From: Bradyrhizobium sacchari
GTDB lineage: Bacteria; Pseudomonadota; Alphaproteobacteria; Rhizobiales; Xanthobacteraceae
NCBI RefSeq assembly: GCF_002068095.1
Contig: NZ_LWIG01000001.1
Span: forward strand, 7,749 to 71,748
DNA: 64,000 bases
Direction of reading: 5' to 3'
In this document: positions 2,499 to 12,236 of the stretch, in pieces
How the letters are laid out: every line of letters starts with the position of its first letter
How positions within the stretch are numbered: position 1 is the first letter of the stretch
Position numbers and translations under genes: made by a program
The notes under the pieces: generated by a model
Seen by the model: only the letters and a program-made list of their open reading frames with translations
What the model was told of the DNA's origin: nothing
Databases searched by the model: none

Positions 2499-2819
2499 TT
2501 ACTTCGCCGCGTTGACGTTGCCCTGGAAGTCAAGGCTAACGTTCGTCGATGTGCCGCCCTTGCTCGCCTTGCCGCGCCACACGCCGTTGTCGTCCTTCTT
2601 CAGGCCCGTGACATCGGTGTAACCCGCCTGCTCGATCTTCGATTTGGCCTGGCCCTCGGTGAAGCTGTTGGCCCCCGAAACCGGTTTGTCGGAATTGTTC
2701 TGGCCGGAACTGTTGACCGCGTTGTTGTTCGGGCGGTCGGTCGCCGGCGGATTTTGCGCGAACGACGGACCCGTCAGAAGCGAAGCGGCCGTCAGCAGCA
2801 GAAGAAGTTTCTTGTTCAT
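2499..2819 (-). CDS. Small secreted protein, PepSY-like
   Basis: 106 aa. There is a clear Sec signal peptide (MNKKLLLLLTAASLLTGPSFAQ), an Asn/Ser-rich linker, and a C-terminal module FTEGQAKSKIEQAGYTDVTG plus a short beta region (GVWRGKA) resembling one PepSY/YpeB-like repeat. It is expected in the periplasm. The function is unknown. It is the first gene after an EcfG-type promoter. Confidence 0.75.
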   Translation of the reverse strand: MNKKLLLLLTAASLLTGPSFAQNPPATDRPNNNAVNSSGQNNSDKPVSGANSFTEGQAKSKIEQAGYTDVTGLKKDDNGVWRGKASKGGTSTNVSLDFQGNVNAAK

Positions 2820-2845: not shown

Positions 2846-2870
2846 AACAGGTGCTGCGCCCAGAGGTTCC
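2846..2870 (-). promoter_or_regulatory. EcfG-type (general stress) promoter
   Basis: On the minus strand GGAAC (2870-2866), 16 bases, then TGTT (2849-2846). This fits the alphaproteobacterial EcfG consensus GGAAC-N16/17-cGTT with one deviation. It lies 27 bases before the start of the PepSY-like gene. Confidence 0.55.
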
Positions 2871-2972: not shown

Positions 2973-2997
2973 CGAACCATGAGGGGTAGCCGGCGTT
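2973..2997 (+). promoter_or_regulatory. Possible EcfG-type promoter before the polX unit
   Basis: CGAAC (2973-2977), 16 bases, then CGTT (2994-2997). The -35 box deviates from GGAAC by one base. It lies just before the ATG at 3008. Weak on its own, but the same motif recurs at several neighbouring genes. Confidence 0.3.
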
Positions 2998-3007
2998 TGC
3001 TGACATC

Positions 3008-3286
3008 ATGTCAGACGCATTCGACTACTTCCGCGCCTGCGCCGTCCGAGCTCTTTGCAAGGCGCGATCGATGCCGCGGGGCCGGATGAAGCATCTGCAG
3101 CTGGTGGCCGGTCGGATCTACAATCTCCTCAAAAAAGAAGCTGTTTACGGCCCCAATATCCAGCAACTAGACGACTTTCGCGCAGCTCAGAAGCTCGAGA
3201 GCTCACTCGATCGCCGGTCGAGTGACCGGTCCGGCGGTCGCCTTGCTCCGTCGGCCCCGCAAAGCGCGGACCGGGAGGCTCGCTGA
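3008..3286 (+). CDS. Small conserved-type hypothetical protein upstream of polX
   Basis: 92 aa. The N-terminal two thirds are helical and basic (DYFRACAVRALCKARSMPRGRMKH and a GRIYNLLKKEAVYGPNIQQLDDFR stretch), and the C-terminal end is Ser/Arg-rich. The stop TGA abuts the ATG of polX with no gap, suggesting translational coupling. The function is unknown. Confidence 0.55.
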   Translation: MSDAFDYFRACAVRALCKARSMPRGRMKHLQLVAGRIYNLLKKEAVYGPNIQQLDDFRAAQKLESSLDRRSSDRSGGRLAPSAPQSADREAR

Positions 3287-4969
3287 ATGCCTTCGCTCGG
3301 CGCTCGCGGTGTGGCAAGTCTCCTGCGAGAGTACGCACAGCGCACAGCCTTGCGGGGCGGCAATCCCTACCGGGCGAAAGCCTACTCTCGGGCCGCCGAC
3401 AGCCTGGCGGCCCTTGCCGTCCCTCTGGACGTGCTCATCGCCGAAGACCGGCTGACGGAGATCCCCGAGGTGGGTGATGCGATCGCTGACATCATCACCA
3501 AGCTCCACAAGACTGGCAGCCATCCGAGCCTCGAAAAGCTGCGGAAGGAGATCCCCGAGAGCGTGCTTGAGATGCTCGCTGTGCCCGGCCTTCGTCCGGA
3601 GAAGCTGCTGCGCCTGTATAAGGATCTCGGCATCGCCTCCCTCGCCGAACTGGAGGCCGCCGCCAAGGACAACCGCATCAAGAAGGTGAAAGGACTGGGC
3701 GCCGCGCTGCAGACCAAGATCCTCCAGAACCTGGCCATCGCGAAGAGCGGAGAAGGCCGCCTCCATCTGCATCGTGCCGCCGCCCTGCTCGCGCACGCGA
3801 AGGACTCGATCCGGAAGGCTCGCCCCGAACTCAAGCGCGTGACGATCGCCGGCGATTTCCGTCGAGGCTGCGAACTCGTCGGTGATCTCGCCATCGTTGC
3901 GGAGGCTCCGGAGGCCGCCAAGGCACCGAAGCCGTCACCCGCCGAGGGACTGCAGATTCGGCTGACAGATCGCAAACACTTCGGCGCCACGCTTCTGTTC
4001 GCGACCGGCTCCGCCGCTCATGTCGAGCAGCTCCGGACGCTGGCCGCCGAGAAAGAGATGCGGTTGGAAGCCGACGGCCTGCACAAGGGGCGGACCCTGA
4101 TCGCGGGCGACGAGGCCGAGATTTATCGCGCTCTTGGTTTGCCCTTCATCGATCCCGAACTCCGGGAGGGCCGCTGCGAGGTCGAACTGGCCCAGAAGGG
4201 TAAGCTGCCGAAGCTCGTCACCGACGAGGACCTCCGCGGAATCCTTCATTGCCACACCGATGGCTCCGACGGAGCGGAGACCCTAGAGACTATGGCGAAG
4301 GCGACGCGCCAGCGCGGCTTCGAGTATTTCGGGGTCGCCGACCATTCGAAGTCTGCTCACTATGCCGGTGGTCTCACCGTGGAGGACATTGAGCAGCAGC
4401 ACCGTGAAGCCGACCGGTTGAACAAACGCTTCCGCAAGGATTTCCGGATCCTGAAAGGCATCGAGTCCGACATTCTGGCGGACGGGTCGCTCGACTACGA
4501 CGACGAGGTGCTTGGACGTTTCGATTTCGTCGTCGCCAGCATCCACGGCCGTTTCAAGCTGGACCGCAAGGCGCAGACGCAGCGCCTGCTTCGGGCCATT
4601 TCCGATCCTCACACGGCCATCATCGGGCACATGACCGGGCGGCAGCTCCAGCGGCGGCCGGGCTATGAGATCGACATCGAGAAGGTGCTTCGGGCCTGTG
4701 CGAAGCATGACGTCGCCGTCGAAATCAACGCACATCCCTGGCGGCTCGATCTGGATTGGCGCTGGCACCAGGCGGCGCTTGAGTTCGGCTGCATGTTAAG
4801 CATCAATCCGGATGTGCACTCGATTCCAGAGCTCGACCACATGCACTGGGGCGTCGAGATGGCTCGCAAGGGCGGCGTCCCGGCCGACCGGGTCCTGAAC
4901 GCGATGAAGTTGCCGGAAATCACGCGATATCTCCGCCAGAAGAGGCGCTTGCTCGCCTGCGCCGCCTGA
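3287..4969 (+). CDS. polX: PolX-family protein: HhH and polymerase X-like domains plus C-terminal PHP nuclease
   Basis: 560 aa. It has N-terminal helix-hairpin-helix motifs (PEVGDAIADIITKLHKTG and a VKGLGAALQTKIL segment), then a polymerase X palm region and a C-terminal PHP phosphoesterase domain. The PHP metal motifs are intact: HCHTDGSDG (His321, His323), VADHS, KGIESDI, ASIH, GHMTGR, EINAHPWRLDLD and NPDVHS. The palm looks degenerate: the usual D-x-D after GDFRRG reads D200-L-A202, and the third aspartate position reads Arg225 (GLQIRLT where VDLR is usual). I infer that 3'-5' exonuclease/phosphoesterase activity is kept but nucleotidyl transfer is doubtful. The family works in base-excision and end repair. 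The stop overlaps the next ATG (TGATG). Confidence 0.9.
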   Translation: MPSLGARGVASLLREYAQRTALRGGNPYRAKAYSRAADSLAALAVPLDVLIAEDRLTEIPEVGDAIADIITKLHKTGSHPSLEKLRKEIPESVLEMLAVPGLRPEKLLRLYKDLGIASLAELEAAAKDNRIKKVKGLGAALQTKILQNLAIAKSGEGRLHLHRAAALLAHAKDSIRKARPELKRVTIAGDFRRGCELVGDLAIVAEAPEAAKAPKPSPAEGLQIRLTDRKHFGATLLFATGSAAHVEQLRTLAAEKEMRLEADGLHKGRTLIAGDEAEIYRALGLPFIDPELREGRCEVELAQKGKLPKLVTDEDLRGILHCHTDGSDGAETLETMAKATRQRGFEYFGVADHSKSAHYAGGLTVEDIEQQHREADRLNKRFRKDFRILKGIESDILADGSLDYDDEVLGRFDFVVASIHGRFKLDRKAQTQRLLRAISDPHTAIIGHMTGRQLQRRPGYEIDIEKVLRACAKHDVAVEINAHPWRLDLDWRWHQAALEFGCMLSINPDVHSIPELDHMHWGVEMARKGGVPADRVLNAMKLPEITRYLRQKRRLLACAA

Positions 4970-5227
4970 TGTCGCCTGTGCACGACGTCTCGCTCGAGGG
5001 AAAGGTGATTGCGGTAGCCGCTGATCGCGGCCACCAGTTCAGCAAGCCGCCACGGGATCAGATCGTTTTGGTGGAAGGCAAAGGTGTCGATTGTGATGCC
5101 CACGCCGGCCCGTTTGTCCGGCACCGATACCTCGCCCATCGCCAGCCCCGGCTTCCCAATCTACGGCAGGTTCACCTGATCCAATCCGAGCGATTTGCGC
5201 ACCTCCGAGAAGCTGGCTTCGCGGTCG
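4969..5227 (+). pseudogene. MOSC-domain protein, 3' end deleted
   Basis: The start is coupled to polX (TGATG). About 86 residues match the N-terminal half of a MOSC domain: VIAVAADRGHQFSKPP, GVDCDAHAG and LRQVHLIQSERF. After residue ~86 the frame runs into the antisense of a DUF3618 gene and ends at 5364 without the rest of the domain, including the region with the sulfur-carrier cysteine. MOSC proteins handle molybdenum-cofactor sulfur or related metal-sulfur chemistry; this copy cannot fold as a full domain. Confidence 0.7.
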
Positions 5228-5385
5228 CAGCCCGACATTTCCGATTTAACGTGTTGAGGCGAGACCATGTACCGCAGATCCCGCGTCGTGTCCGATATCC
5301 CCTGCTTGAGACGTTCGACCGTGGCCGCCAATTCCGCCCGGTTACGCTCGGACTCCCGTCGTAGCTCCTCCACCGATCGTGTCAT
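5161..5385 (-). pseudogene. DUF3618 protein, truncated by the MOSC junction
   Basis: 74 codons. The N-terminus SVEELRRESERNRAELAATV and ERLKQGISDTTRDLRYMVSP with QHVKSEMSG is typical of DUF3618 proteins. From about residue 52 the sequence becomes antisense of the MOSC gene and no longer fits the family. The gene is therefore a 5' fragment with a foreign tail. The start at 5385 lies two bases from the stop of the small minus-strand frame at 5387. Confidence 0.65.
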
Positions 5386-7512: not shown

Positions 7513-7538
7513 GGAACATCGAGCCTGGAACGCACGTT
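7513..7538 (+). promoter_or_regulatory. EcfG-type promoter of the HWE kinase gene
   Basis: GGAAC (7513-7517), exactly 17 bases, then CGTT (7535-7538). This matches the EcfG consensus fully. The -10 ends only 8 bases before the ATG at 7547, so the message would be leaderless or nearly so. Confidence 0.7.
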
Positions 7539-7546
7539 CCTCCCAA

Positions 7547-8506
7547 ATGGAAGCCTTTCTGCACCGCCTCTTCACGGCCAGGTCGGACTTTCCGGTCTGG
7601 GCGCGCTACACCTTGACGCTCGGCCTGGTCGGCATCGCGTTCTTCGCCCGGGTGATGCTGGACGATCACCTGCGCTCCTACCCCGTTCTGCTCTTCATCC
7701 CGGCCATCTTCCTGTCCTCCGTCCTCTTCGACCGCGGCAGTGGTATCATGGCCACCGCGGCAGCGGCCGCGCTTGCTGCCGCCTACTTCATCCCGGGACC
7801 TCCATCATCCGCTGCGATCCCGCTCGTCTTGTTCGTCTTGACCGGCATTTGCATCGCAACCGTCACCGAGCTTCTGCGGCACACTCTGCAGAACCTTGCC
7901 GAAGCCAAACGGTATTCGGAAGTTCTGCTGCAGGAGCTCGCGCATAGAACGCGGAACGACCTCGCCACCATAGTCTCCGTCCTTAGACTTCAGGCCCGCT
8001 CGGCGACCGACCCTGCGGTCCAGGCGGCGATTACGTCAGCGGTGAGCCGGGTGGACGTGGTCGCCAAGGTCCACGACCGTTTGCGCGATACGGCAGACAG
8101 CAGCCGCATCGACCTCGCGCCGTACATCGAAGCCCTATGCGGGAGCCTCGCTGATTTTCATCGCGGGGTGCGCACGATCTCGATCGGTGTCCGCTGCGAG
8201 CATATCGAGGTGCGGAGCTCGCAGGCCGCGTCGATCGGGCTGATCGTGAACGAACTGGTGACGAACTGCTTCAAGTACGCCTTCCCCGAGGGTCGCCGCG
8301 GCGCGGTGGAGGTAGACGTGCGCGCCAAGGACGACCGCATCCTCGTGACCGTACAGGACAACGGCGTCGGCTGTCCGGTCGAAGTCAAGAGCGGGCTCGG
8401 CACGCGGTTGATCAGCCTGCTGGCGTCCCAGATGAAGGGGGCAGTGACGAGAAGGCCTCTTTCGGAAGGCTGCGAGGTGCAGGTTTCACTCGCGCGTGAT
8501 GCATGA
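7547..8506 (+). CDS. HisKA_2/HWE-type membrane sensor histidine kinase
   Basis: 319 aa. Four hydrophobic segments at about residues 21-110 form a DUF4118-like membrane region without a periplasmic sensor domain. The kinase core follows: the H-box ELAHRTRNDLATIVSVL with phospho-accepting His133, the N-box NELVTNCFKYAF (Asn235), DNGVGCP (Asp271) and the glycine motif GLGTRLI. Kinases of this type feed the PhyR-NepR-EcfG general stress response in alphaproteobacteria; here an EcfG-type promoter directly before the gene fits that link, as inference. No response regulator is adjacent. Confidence 0.88.
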   Translation: MEAFLHRLFTARSDFPVWARYTLTLGLVGIAFFARVMLDDHLRSYPVLLFIPAIFLSSVLFDRGSGIMATAAAAALAAAYFIPGPPSSAAIPLVLFVLTGICIATVTELLRHTLQNLAEAKRYSEVLLQELAHRTRNDLATIVSVLRLQARSATDPAVQAAITSAVSRVDVVAKVHDRLRDTADSSRIDLAPYIEALCGSLADFHRGVRTISIGVRCEHIEVRSSQAASIGLIVNELVTNCFKYAFPEGRRGAVEVDVRAKDDRILVTVQDNGVGCPVEVKSGLGTRLISLLASQMKGAVTRRPLSEGCEVQVSLARDA

Positions 8507-9610: not shown

Positions 9611-9814
9611 TCATTCGGGCGGCAGTAGGCCGGGCGAACGAAGCCAATCACTCAGATGCGCGCCGGTCTGCGCAATCCTGGCTCGTTTCAGCAAGGCCTC
9701 GCGCTCGGCTCCAGCGGGTAACTGGCTGGCCTGTTCTTTTAGCTTTGCCGCCTGTTCTGCCATTCGTTCTTCGAGGGAGCGGGTCTGTACGACCCTACGA
9801 CGATGCTGCGTCAT
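9611..9814 (-). CDS. Small conserved-type helical protein
   Basis: 67 aa. The ATG at 9814 (MTQHRRRVVQTRSLEERMAE) is favoured over the frame start at 9850 by a GGAAGG ribosome site. It is a charged helix (LKEQASQLPAGAEREALLKRA) ending SDWLRSPGLLPPE, a pattern seen in short Bradyrhizobium proteins of unknown function. An EcfG-type promoter at 9851-9875 lies 37 bases upstream. Confidence 0.7.
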   Translation of the reverse strand: MTQHRRRVVQTRSLEERMAEQAAKLKEQASQLPAGAEREALLKRARIAQTGAHLSDWLRSPGLLPPE

Positions 9815-9850: not shown

Positions 9851-9875
9851 AACGGAGATGGCCGGCTTCGGTTCC
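9851..9875 (-). promoter_or_regulatory. EcfG-type promoter of the 9611-9814 gene
   Basis: On the minus strand GGAAC (9875-9871), 16 bases, then CGTT (9854-9851), a full match to the EcfG consensus. It is well placed, with about 30 bases of leader to the ATG at 9814. Confidence 0.75.
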
Positions 9876-10379: not shown

Positions 10380-10610
10380 CTACACTGTGGCGAATGCCAG
10401 ATAAAGAGGCCACAGGGCGACTGCCATAATGGCGGCCCATATGAGAGCAGGCAAGAAGCTCGCGGCGGTCCATAGTCCAAGGACGACCAACACTAGTGCC
10501 AGGACAATTCTGGCCTTCATGCGGGCCCCCGCCCCCAGAGGGAGCGGCTTTTGTTCGGCGGCGAGGCTGCCGAATGAAGTCTCTTCTGTCCCGTTGGCTG
10601 TGGCGGTCAT
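10380..10610 (-). pseudogene. AI-2E/PerM-family transporter, N-terminal fragment
   Basis: 76 codons. After a polar N-terminus, residues ~31-72 (RIVLALVLVVLGLWTAASFL and PALIWAAIMAVALWPLY) match the first two membrane helices of AI-2E family exporters, which are normally around 350 aa. A stop follows at 10380 and the rest is missing. It lies 30 bases after the small gene ending at 10641 and is probably on the same transcript. Confidence 0.6.
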
Positions 10611-10640: not shown

Positions 10641-10841
10641 CTACGGCCTTGCGGTAGCTGACGTTTGGTCCGCTGACGGACCGGACTGCGGGACCACACG
10701 CTTGGAGATACGGACCACATGCACTTTGCCTGTCGTGGTCCCTCGTCTCTGGATCCGTCCGCTACGCCAGCTAGCGACCTCGTTTTCCAAGCGCGATACT
10801 TCGTCCTCGACTTCGCCGCCTCGTTCGTTGGCCGCGCGCAT
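10641..10841 (-). CDS. Small hypothetical protein with an EcfG-type promoter
   Basis: 66 aa from the ATG at 10841, with an AGGAAAG ribosome site. The N-terminal half is an acidic coiled-coil-like helix (NERGGEVEDEVSRLENEVAS), and the middle carries GKVHVVRISKRVV. No family is recognised. The EcfG-type promoter at 10876-10900 supports expression. Confidence 0.55.
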   Translation of the reverse strand: MRAANERGGEVEDEVSRLENEVASWRSGRIQRRGTTTGKVHVVRISKRVVPQSGPSADQTSATARP

Positions 10842-10875: not shown

Positions 10876-10900
10876 AACGAGACAAGGCGACGTATGTTCC
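10876..10900 (-). promoter_or_regulatory. EcfG-type promoter, leftward member of a divergent pair
   Basis: On the minus strand GGAAC (10900-10896), 16 bases, CGTT (10879-10876). It serves the small gene starting at 10841. It lies back to back with the plus-strand promoter at 10908, with only 7 bases between the two -35 boxes. Confidence 0.75.
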
Positions 10901-10907
10901 GTTGCCA

Positions 10908-10933
10908 GGAACAACCGGCAGGATGCCCTCGTT
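10908..10933 (+). promoter_or_regulatory. EcfG-type promoter, rightward member of a divergent pair
   Basis: GGAAC (10908-10912), 17 bases, CGTT (10930-10933). It precedes the membrane protein gene at 10954 and, by overlap, the ligase at 11289. The leader is short, with the GGAGGAG ribosome site starting at about 10941. Confidence 0.75.
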
Positions 10934-10953: not shown

Positions 10954-11292
10954 ATGAGCTTAAGAAAGTCGATCGAAGGACTCGGCCCCTACCCGTCGCT
11001 CTTCTTGCTGGCTCTACCGGCGGCTACCGTAGAGCCTCTGAAGCTCGTCGCGGTAGCCGTGGCAGGAGAGGGCCATTGGATTACCGGGACGGCGATGATC
11101 GTGGCGTGCTACGCATTTAGCCTTCTGGTTGTCGAACGGCTTTTCGTCATCGTGAAGCCTAAGCTTCTCACGATCCCCTGGTTCGCAAAGATCTGGAAAG
11201 CCCTCGTTTTTGTTCGGACGCGCATGATCGGCACATTCCGTGGGAGCCGAACCGAGAATGCGATTCGCGATACGCCGTCAGCTTCGAAATGA
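10954..11292 (+). CDS. Small inner-membrane protein upstream of the ligase
   Basis: 112 aa from the ATG at 10954, preceded by GGAGGAG; the longer frame from 10894 overlaps the promoter and is not used. Two hydrophobic segments (about residues 12-35 and 46-66: LFLLALPAATVEPLKLVAVAVAG and MIVACYAFSLLVVERLFVIV) suggest a two-helix membrane protein with a basic C-terminus. No family is recognised. The stop overlaps the ligase start (ATGA). Confidence 0.65.
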   Translation: MSLRKSIEGLGPYPSLFLLALPAATVEPLKLVAVAVAGEGHWITGTAMIVACYAFSLLVVERLFVIVKPKLLTIPWFAKIWKALVFVRTRMIGTFRGSRTENAIRDTPSASK

Positions 11293-12236
11293 GCCGAAAA
11301 TCAACGCTGCCTAAGCGGCTGCAGCCTATGCTGGCCACGCTGACCGATACTCCCTTCGACGATGCCCATTGGGTGTTTGAGGACAAGTACGACGGCTTCC
11401 GGATGGTCTCCGAGATCCGCGGAGGCAGAGTGGCCTTGTACAGCCGCAACGGCAAGATCATCAGTCATTCGTATGTGGAGGTTGCACAGGCCCTGGAAAG
11501 CGTGAAGGGCGACGCTGTGATCGATGGCGAGCTCGTCGCCCTCGGCAAGGACGGCGTTTCGCACTTCCAATTGCTGCAGAACGCGTTTAGACACGAAGCC
11601 AAGCTCCTTTACTGTGTGTTCGATCTCATGTTCGCCGAGGGCGAAGACCTCCGGAAGCTTCCTCTGCTCGCGCGCAAGGAAAGGCTGAAGGCCATCCTGC
11701 CGCGCCACAAGCTGATTGCATTCAGCAAGCACCGTAAAGGCAACGGCACAAAATTCTTTGCAGAAGCCGAGCGAAGACATCTCGAAGGCATCATGGCCAA
11801 GCGCGCCGACAGCCCGTACGCGTGGGGACGCCGGACCGCGGACTGGCTGAAGGTGAAGACCGCGCAGCGGCAGGAGGTCGTTATCGCCGGATTCACGGCG
11901 CCCAGGCGAACCCGGCCTTTCTTCGGCGCGCTCGTCCTAGCGGTGCGCGAAGATGATGGATGGCAGTACATCGGCCACGTTGGCACCGGCTTCAGCCACC
12001 AAGTTCTCGAAGAGCTCCACGGAAAGCTCATGAGGCTCAAGACTTCCAGGTCGCCCTTTCCTGCCAAGGTGAAGGACGAGCGAGTCACGACCTGGGTGCG
12101 TCAGACATTGGTCGCGGAAGTGAAGTTCGCGGAGTGGACCAGCAAGGGCGAGCTGCGCCAGCCGGTCTATCTCGGGCTGCGGTCCGACAAAACCGCGAAG
12201 GACGTTGTTCGCGAAAAGAACTGGTCGCGAAAATAG
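11289..12236 (+). CDS. Stand-alone ATP-dependent DNA ligase (LigD ligase-domain type)
   Basis: 315 aa, just the ligase core with no polymerase or phosphoesterase domain. Motif I is EDKYDGFR with Lys33 as the adenylated residue. YSRNGK, DGELVAL, the EGIMAKR motif and WLKVKT follow, then an OB-fold with GHVGTGF and VAEVKFAEWTSKGELRQPVYLGLR. Such ligases (LigC/LigD-like) seal nicks and ends in NHEJ and repair in rhizobia. It is co-transcribed with the membrane protein upstream and EcfG-linked by its promoter. No Ku gene is in the window. Confidence 0.92.
   Translation: MSRKSTLPKRLQPMLATLTDTPFDDAHWVFEDKYDGFRMVSEIRGGRVALYSRNGKIISHSYVEVAQALESVKGDAVIDGELVALGKDGVSHFQLLQNAFRHEAKLLYCVFDLMFAEGEDLRKLPLLARKERLKAILPRHKLIAFSKHRKGNGTKFFAEAERRHLEGIMAKRADSPYAWGRRTADWLKVKTAQRQEVVIAGFTAPRRTRPFFGALVLAVREDDGWQYIGHVGTGFSHQVLEELHGKLMRLKTSRSPFPAKVKDERVTTWVRQTLVAEVKFAEWTSKGELRQPVYLGLRSDKTAKDVVREKNWSRK

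Follow-up and report, generated by a model that had tools for sequence, protein, structure and literature searches.

The stretch of DNA analysed here, called the window below, comprises 64,000 nucleotides of the Bradyrhizobium sacchari genome. Pattern matching placed an EcfG-type promoter motif, GGAAC-N16-CGTT, on its minus strand at 10876-10900, directed leftward, and a second one, GGAAC-N17-CGTT, on its plus strand at 10908-10933, directed rightward. Their -35 boxes lie at 10896-10900 and 10908-10912 with 7 bases between them, and comparison with orthologues of the downstream gene TM112 delineated an inverted -35 dyad common to both promoters, GTTCC-N7-GGAAC (10896-10912). The coordinates proposed for this pair in an earlier, sequence-only reading were reproduced exactly. 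Both members are complete and face outward, each being followed by a gene start, and both have the boxes of EcfG promoters, GGAAC and [C/G]GTT at 16 or 17 bp, the -10 box being CGTT in each.

Genes on either side of the pair

The leftward promoter faces s66 (10641-10841, minus strand), a reading frame for a 66-aa protein with homologues in relatives and no Pfam match, followed by a 76-aa gene of the AI-2E transporter family (10380-10610, minus strand). The latter had been described as truncated, and longer frames in relatives bear this out: wherever the end is visible, the frame is open for 357 to 375 aa from the start of the match, except in one genome (57 aa), and four further frames extend past the available sequence. 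An AI-2E family transporter is also annotated at the matching position beside a TM112 homologue in a plasmid record.

On the other side, gene order and Pfam matches agree with the proposal of a small membrane protein followed by a stand-alone ligase. TM112 (10954-11292, plus strand) is a reading frame without Pfam match that most likely starts at 10954, giving 112 aa; we call it a small membrane protein because of the hydrophobicity of its predicted sequence. The stand-alone ATP-dependent DNA ligase gene of the LigD-ligase-domain type (11289-12236, plus strand) overlaps the stop codon of TM112 by ATGA. Its product has the adenylation and C-terminal domains (PF01068 and PF04679), its best match among solved structures is 1vs0 (E 3e-50), and its nearest counterparts in named genomes are from Bradyrhizobium. 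Unlike a non-homologous end-joining operon, the unit of the ligase has no Ku gene, all four Ku genes being on other contigs. A second LigD-type ligase gene (L031) lies just before the start of the window, where a full-consensus motif faces genes whose Pfam matches indicate a ribbon-helix-helix regulator and an esterase of the PHB-depolymerase type; a similar leftward motif is found at about -217 in twelve related ligase loci.

The genome encodes the PhyR-NepR-EcfG switch. NepR scored above the Pfam cut-off at a single locus, which also has PhyR, with its sigma-like and receiver domains, and an EcfG-like ECF sigma factor. Between phyR and nepR we found GGAAC-N16-GGTT toward nepR and GGAAC-N16-TGTT toward phyR; these two motifs overlap almost completely, each -35 box lying on the other's -10 box (L190:1251-1277).

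Motif counts in the window and the genome

The window contains four full GGAAC-N16/17-CGTT matches: the pair and the sites at 7513-7538 (plus strand) and 9851-9875 (minus strand), both of which had been listed earlier and were recovered by the pattern search. Shuffled versions of the window gave a mean of 0.99 matches and reached four or more in 1 of 100 shuffles, and 1.2 sites would be expected in 64 kb, a weak excess (Poisson P 0.03). Across the 8.70-Mb genome, 88 + 76 = 164 matches compare with 93 + 92 = 185 for the reversed control. The bare motif is thus not enriched genome-wide relative to this control, a weak test given that the pattern is short and that most matches are expected by chance. 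Six matches are clustered within 14.3 kb (C1:4339-18681), and when 164 sites were placed at random such a cluster arose anywhere in 0.15% of 20,000 simulations, a figure weakened by the choice of the interval after the data had been seen. A motif density above background is thus seen locally, in a post hoc test, but not for the genome as a whole.

Genome-wide density was accordingly discarded as proof of promoters, and the comparison with relatives becomes decisive, conservation being in our judgment stronger evidence than match counts. A genome-wide count no higher than that of the control would suit the view that the motifs match by chance, the genome being rich in GC, but their fixed spacing and position, with scrambled spacers, are conserved in many loci (below), and we regard this view as extremely unlikely.

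The pair upstream of TM112 in relatives

We searched for TM112 in 265 genomes of the genus and read the promoter regions without selecting for the motif. In 21 orthologues (L112-L127 and L195-L199) the alignment begins close to the start and identity is 69% or higher. All of them have GGAAC-N16/17-NGTT beginning 33 to 54 bp before the start codon, the -10 box being CGTT in 12, GGTT in 5, AGTT in 3 and TGTT in 1, and in all of them GTTCC is present upstream of GGAAC, at a gap of 7 (11 loci), 6 (9 loci) or 5 bp (1 locus). A further five copies above the same identity threshold, broken or incomplete (L277-L281), were added, and all five have both the motif and the inverted GTTCC. Altogether, GGAAC-N16/17-NGTT was found in 26/26 orthologous promoters (CGTT 14, GGTT 6, AGTT 5, TGTT 1), with the inverted GTTCC 5 to 7 bp upstream in 26/26. 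The spacer of the rightward promoter varies in sequence and length among these orthologues, and the boxes are kept.

The leftward promoter is less uniformly present. Its -10 box stands at exactly 16 bp in 17 of the 26 promoters (AACG or AACC, 14 + 3), or 16 of 25 without the window; AACG is at 15 in L196, the box is one mismatch away in L121, L122, L197, L277 and L281, and it is absent from L115, L118 and L120. Before homologues of s66, the leftward promoter occurs with CGTT in genomes G002 and G140 and with GGTT at L059; it was not found before the s66 homologue of L099. None of 20 more distant TM112 homologues has the same arrangement at the same place (G238 lies outside this set); at L138 something like the pair, with a gap of 12, is seen at a more upstream position, and GTTCC-N5-GGAAC is present without -10 boxes at L141.

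Under this comparison the leftward and the rightward promoter both behave like promoters of the EcfG type, as had been claimed: the boxes are kept, the spacers are scrambled and the spacing is held at 16 or 17. We conclude from these alignments that the window holds a genuine pair of general-stress-type promoters, a known kind of promoter.

At least nine loci (L118, L120-L123, L125-L127 and L198) have TM112 and its promoter with no ligase within about 1.5 kb, indicating that the pair is not selected for the ligase alone. In some relatives the leftward partner is a PRC-barrel gene, followed by the AI-2E transporter gene. TM112 homologues with the inverted -35 dyad are also found on Bradyrhizobium plasmids (L223-L226), two of the four typed as conjugative; the leftward -10 box is changed in 3/4 of these loci. 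As the TM112 promoter occurs without the ligase, on plasmids and with varied leftward partners, the pair belongs to TM112 and its leftward partner, and the ligase probably joined it in some lineages.

Promoters of related ligase genes

Among the best 80 of 138 related ligase loci, 78 had 500 bp of upstream sequence. A coding-strand GGAAC-N16/17-CGTT was found in 44 of these 78 (N16 in 12, N17 in 32), whereas the other 20 spacings from 8 to 29 gave one match in total. The 44 loci contain 28 different spacers; they do not represent 44 independent events, since many are close relatives or paralogues. Among the 34 loci without the motif, the ligase gene directly follows p131 or PolX on the same strand in 17, and 12 have only a leftward motif at about -217; the remainder comprise an AGTT variant (L036 and L047), CCTT (L086), a GGTT pair (L059) and one locus with nothing (L106). 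In four loci the motif coexists with an upstream p131 or PolX.

The gene order PolX-p131-ligase-RNase HII-topoisomerase IB is common in relatives. In the window, the genes for OprB, the HWE kinase and s67, the AI-2E remnant, s66 and TM112 lie between p131 and the ligase gene. At L213, in a relative, two copies of the HWE kinase gene with its promoter, one of them broken, and two copies of the ligase gene are found within 20 kb, which suggests a local duplication.

Other candidate promoters of the island

The sequence-only reading had extended EcfG control to the whole repair island, naming two near-consensus sites in addition to the full motifs. Both sites are present. The first, CGAAC-N16-CGTT (2973-2997, plus strand), precedes the polX operon, which consists of q92 (a 92-aa reading frame, 3008-3286), the gene for PolX, a family X DNA polymerase with a PHP domain identified by domain search (3287-4969), and p131 (4969-5364), which is directly upstream of the ligase gene in many relatives; all three are on the plus strand. 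NGAAC-N16-CGTT was found before q92 in 25/25 loci, our own included, with CGAAC in 23, TGAAC in 1, AGAAC in 1 and GGAAC in none. The spacing was 16 in all 25, with 19 different spacers, and the other spacings from 10 to 24 gave one match. A strict GGAAC site was also sought; none lies within 330 bp of PolX in the window copy, the conserved site being the one before q92. The -10 box is 8 to 11 nt from the ATG in 25/25 q92 copies, a distance that suggests a leaderless message.

Since the -35 box of polX is mostly CGAAC and never GGAAC, its sigma factor is less certain. This feature would fit the use of these promoters by another ECF sigma factor with similar taste rather than EcfG, and in Sinorhizobium meliloti 27 of 40 RpoE6 targets are also described as RpoE2 targets, with somewhat similar motifs (PMC6180224). 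However, GGAAC-N16/17-CGTT is the consensus of the EcfG group, and the Methylobacterium form of the motif, described as GAAC-N16,17-C/GGTT, also admits CGAAC (PMC4814048). We therefore think it quite improbable that a sigma factor other than EcfG is at work.

The second near-consensus site, GGAAC-N16-TGTT (2846-2870, minus strand), is an EcfG-like promoter, retained on the basis of conservation in relatives, before sec106 (2499-2819, minus strand), which encodes a small, putatively secreted protein, to judge from its N-terminus, with a Pfam match to PepSY_2. GGAAC-N16-[TG]GTT precedes sec106 in 7/9 other loci, and the two misses are from one genome.

The full motif at 7513-7538 (plus strand), an EcfG-type promoter, precedes an HWE/HisKA_2 histidine kinase gene identified by domain search (7547-8506, plus strand). 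Its -10 box is 8 nt from the ATG, which suggests that the kinase may be translated from a leaderless stress message. The distance from motif to ATG is the same in three further copies from two genomes, one copy being broken. At 7513-7540, motifs with CGTT and TGTT on opposite strands overlap almost fully, each -35 box lying on the other's -10 box. The remaining EcfG-type motif, at 9851-9875 on the minus strand, precedes s67, a reading frame for a 67-aa protein (9611-9814, minus strand); L214 (91% identity) retains the motif and L095 (84%) has it with GGTT, and homologues with 63% identity or less lack it.

No EcfG motif was found before the topoisomerase IB gene in the window or in any of 18 relatives scanned, nor before the RNase HII gene in the window. 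The notion that the entire island is wired to the stress response was thus supported for the polX operon, the HWE kinase, s67 and sec106, whose promoters are kept in relatives, but not for topoisomerase IB and RNase HII. Elsewhere in the genome, the four Ku genes have no full CGTT motif directed at them within about 1.5 kb. One of them, on G000:C2 (L192), is preceded by GGAAC-N16-GGTT, located approximately 38 bases ahead of the likely start; at another, on C13, a full motif is directed away from the gene.

A second back-to-back pair and the possible role of the inverted box

Among the matches listed, back-to-back pairs with a right-hand spacing of 16 and a gap of 0 to 30 occurred at least once in 83/146 genomes, compared with 13/146 for the reversed control; pairs with a right-hand spacing of 17 occurred in 20/146 genomes. 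In our own genome the commonest pair among these matches, located at L212:619-672 (G000:C69) with a 4-bp gap, is flanked by a DUF3175 gene on one side and a sugar-type transporter gene on the other. We had considered whether this conserved gap-4 pair was the phyR/ecfG locus, which was ruled out as it adjoins the DUF3175 and transporter genes and phyR-nepR-ecfG is elsewhere. Another close back-to-back pair, with one CGTT, one GGTT and a gap of 9, is present at L209 (G000:C43:22450-24500).

We read 50 DUF3175 promoters, taking the 30 best from a list of 90 and choosing another 20 among its lower ranks. GGAAC-N16-NGTT precedes the DUF3175 gene in all 50. GTTCC is 2 to 5 bases upstream in 33 and at 14 and 16 in two more, and all 35 of these promoters have AACG at 16; the other 15 have neither AACG nor GTTCC within 45 bp, the 30 best having been read to 12 bp only. 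In this set the inverted box is present or absent together with the divergent promoter. In contrast, the inverted GTTCC is kept in 8/8 TM112 promoters without an intact leftward -10 box.

This contrast would suit a different view of the locus, in which GTTCC-N5..7-GGAAC is mainly the site of a dimeric regulator or contains a second -35 box assisting the rightward promoter, and the leftward promoter arose incidentally and is put to use in some genomes. In six of the eight TM112 promoters, moreover, AYGTTCC has an identity of 0.92, and the sequences beyond it to the left are no more alike among these loci than chance would give (0.26). But the value of 0.26 was obtained between clades, and no locus was paired with its closest intact relative. 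Among the eight, the -10 box is one mismatch away in five, and at L120 the region further left is still similar to that of the intact L280, so that the loss may be recent in most; L115 and L118 are the only two without any trace of a leftward -10 box. Half-sites that are 5, 6 or 7 bp apart would also hardly be tolerable for a rigid dimer. On balance we find this view rather unlikely. There is a similarly small chance that AYGTTCC in itself contributes to the working of the rightward promoter, such that an EcfG polymerase bound in reverse, or another protein, would tune TM112 and the ligase even without a leftward transcript.

A general rule of inverted -35 boxes at EcfG promoters was also considered and found to be weak. 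In our own genome, GTTCC-N3..9-GGAAC followed by CGTT gave 22 matches versus 10 for the reversed control, 12 of the 22 at spacing 16 or 17, but several of these sites are inside reading frames or away from gene starts; a wider search with NGTT gave 40 versus 16. In 30 further genomes of the order the pattern gave 89 matches, 20 of them at spacing 16 or 17, and was rarer than the control (210 matches).

Discussion

The stretch at 10876-10933 is very probably a divergent promoter pair for the general stress sigma factor EcfG. We infer EcfG recognition, the start sites, co-induction and steric exclusion at the pair as follows. Under stress, PhyR would take NepR off EcfG, and the EcfG polymerase would then start leftward at about 10869, for s66 and the AI-2E remnant, and rightward at about 10940, for TM112 and then, through the ATGA that couples the two genes, for the ligase. 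With -35 boxes this close, joint occupancy by two polymerases is improbable, and the two would probably be unable to sit together at the pair. The footprint of the polymerase reaches some 55 bp upstream; with starts about 70 bp apart, two holoenzymes should thus exclude each other. The two directions would share one site, being co-induced by stress and used in turn.

Several known systems resemble parts of this arrangement. The pair has the same elements as the EcfG (ECF15) promoters described for the alphaproteobacterial general stress response (PMC4814048, PMC6599016), a GGAAC -35 box, 16 or 17 bp and a C/GGTT -10 box; it differs from them in that only 7 bp separate the -35 boxes and that one member drives a TM112-ligase operon. 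Like the genes at the pair, phyR and nepR-ecfG are described as diverging from each other in most Alphaproteobacteria, with an EcfG promoter for each unit (PMC4814048), whereas the candidate phyR/nepR motifs of this genome overlap rather than standing back to back. Bidirectional promoters of Escherichia coli are reported to contain symmetrical sequences that engage RNA polymerase both ways, one binding event preventing the other, with start sites most often 18 bp apart (PMC12825309). The two orientations and mutually preventing binding recall the window pair, but its starts would be about 70 bp apart, with adjacent -35 boxes and a sigma factor of the ECF type.

The RpoE2 stress response of S. 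meliloti controls end joining with ku and lig genes. It shares with the window the placing of DNA end repair under a general stress sigma factor; the window differs in having a stand-alone ligase and PolX, and in this genome the four Ku genes are not faced by a full CGTT motif within about 1.5 kb, although GGAAC-N16-GGTT precedes one of them. The EcfG regulon of Sphingomonas is described as including Ku, topoisomerase IB, PRC-barrel proteins, small secreted proteins and a sensor kinase (PMC6599016). As Ku and topoisomerase IB are EcfG dependent there, end repair under the stress response is not new in kind. Among the papers listed in the literature searches, the titles and opening lines of abstracts name neither this pair, nor the TM112-ligase operon, nor inverted -35 dyads of EcfG, and a term search for GGAAC gave no occurrence in PMC8092242 or PMC3420878.

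The pair would link a stand-alone ligase of the end-joining type to the general stress response of Bradyrhizobium, and the polX promoter would separately do so for PolX. Related ligase genes appear to have come under such a promoter by several routes: some are within the polX operon, some have a promoter of their own at about -85 or -55, and others follow TM112. The close back-to-back layout is found at two unrelated places and is kept in the genus, which would permit a direct test of whether ECF polymerases compete with or help each other.
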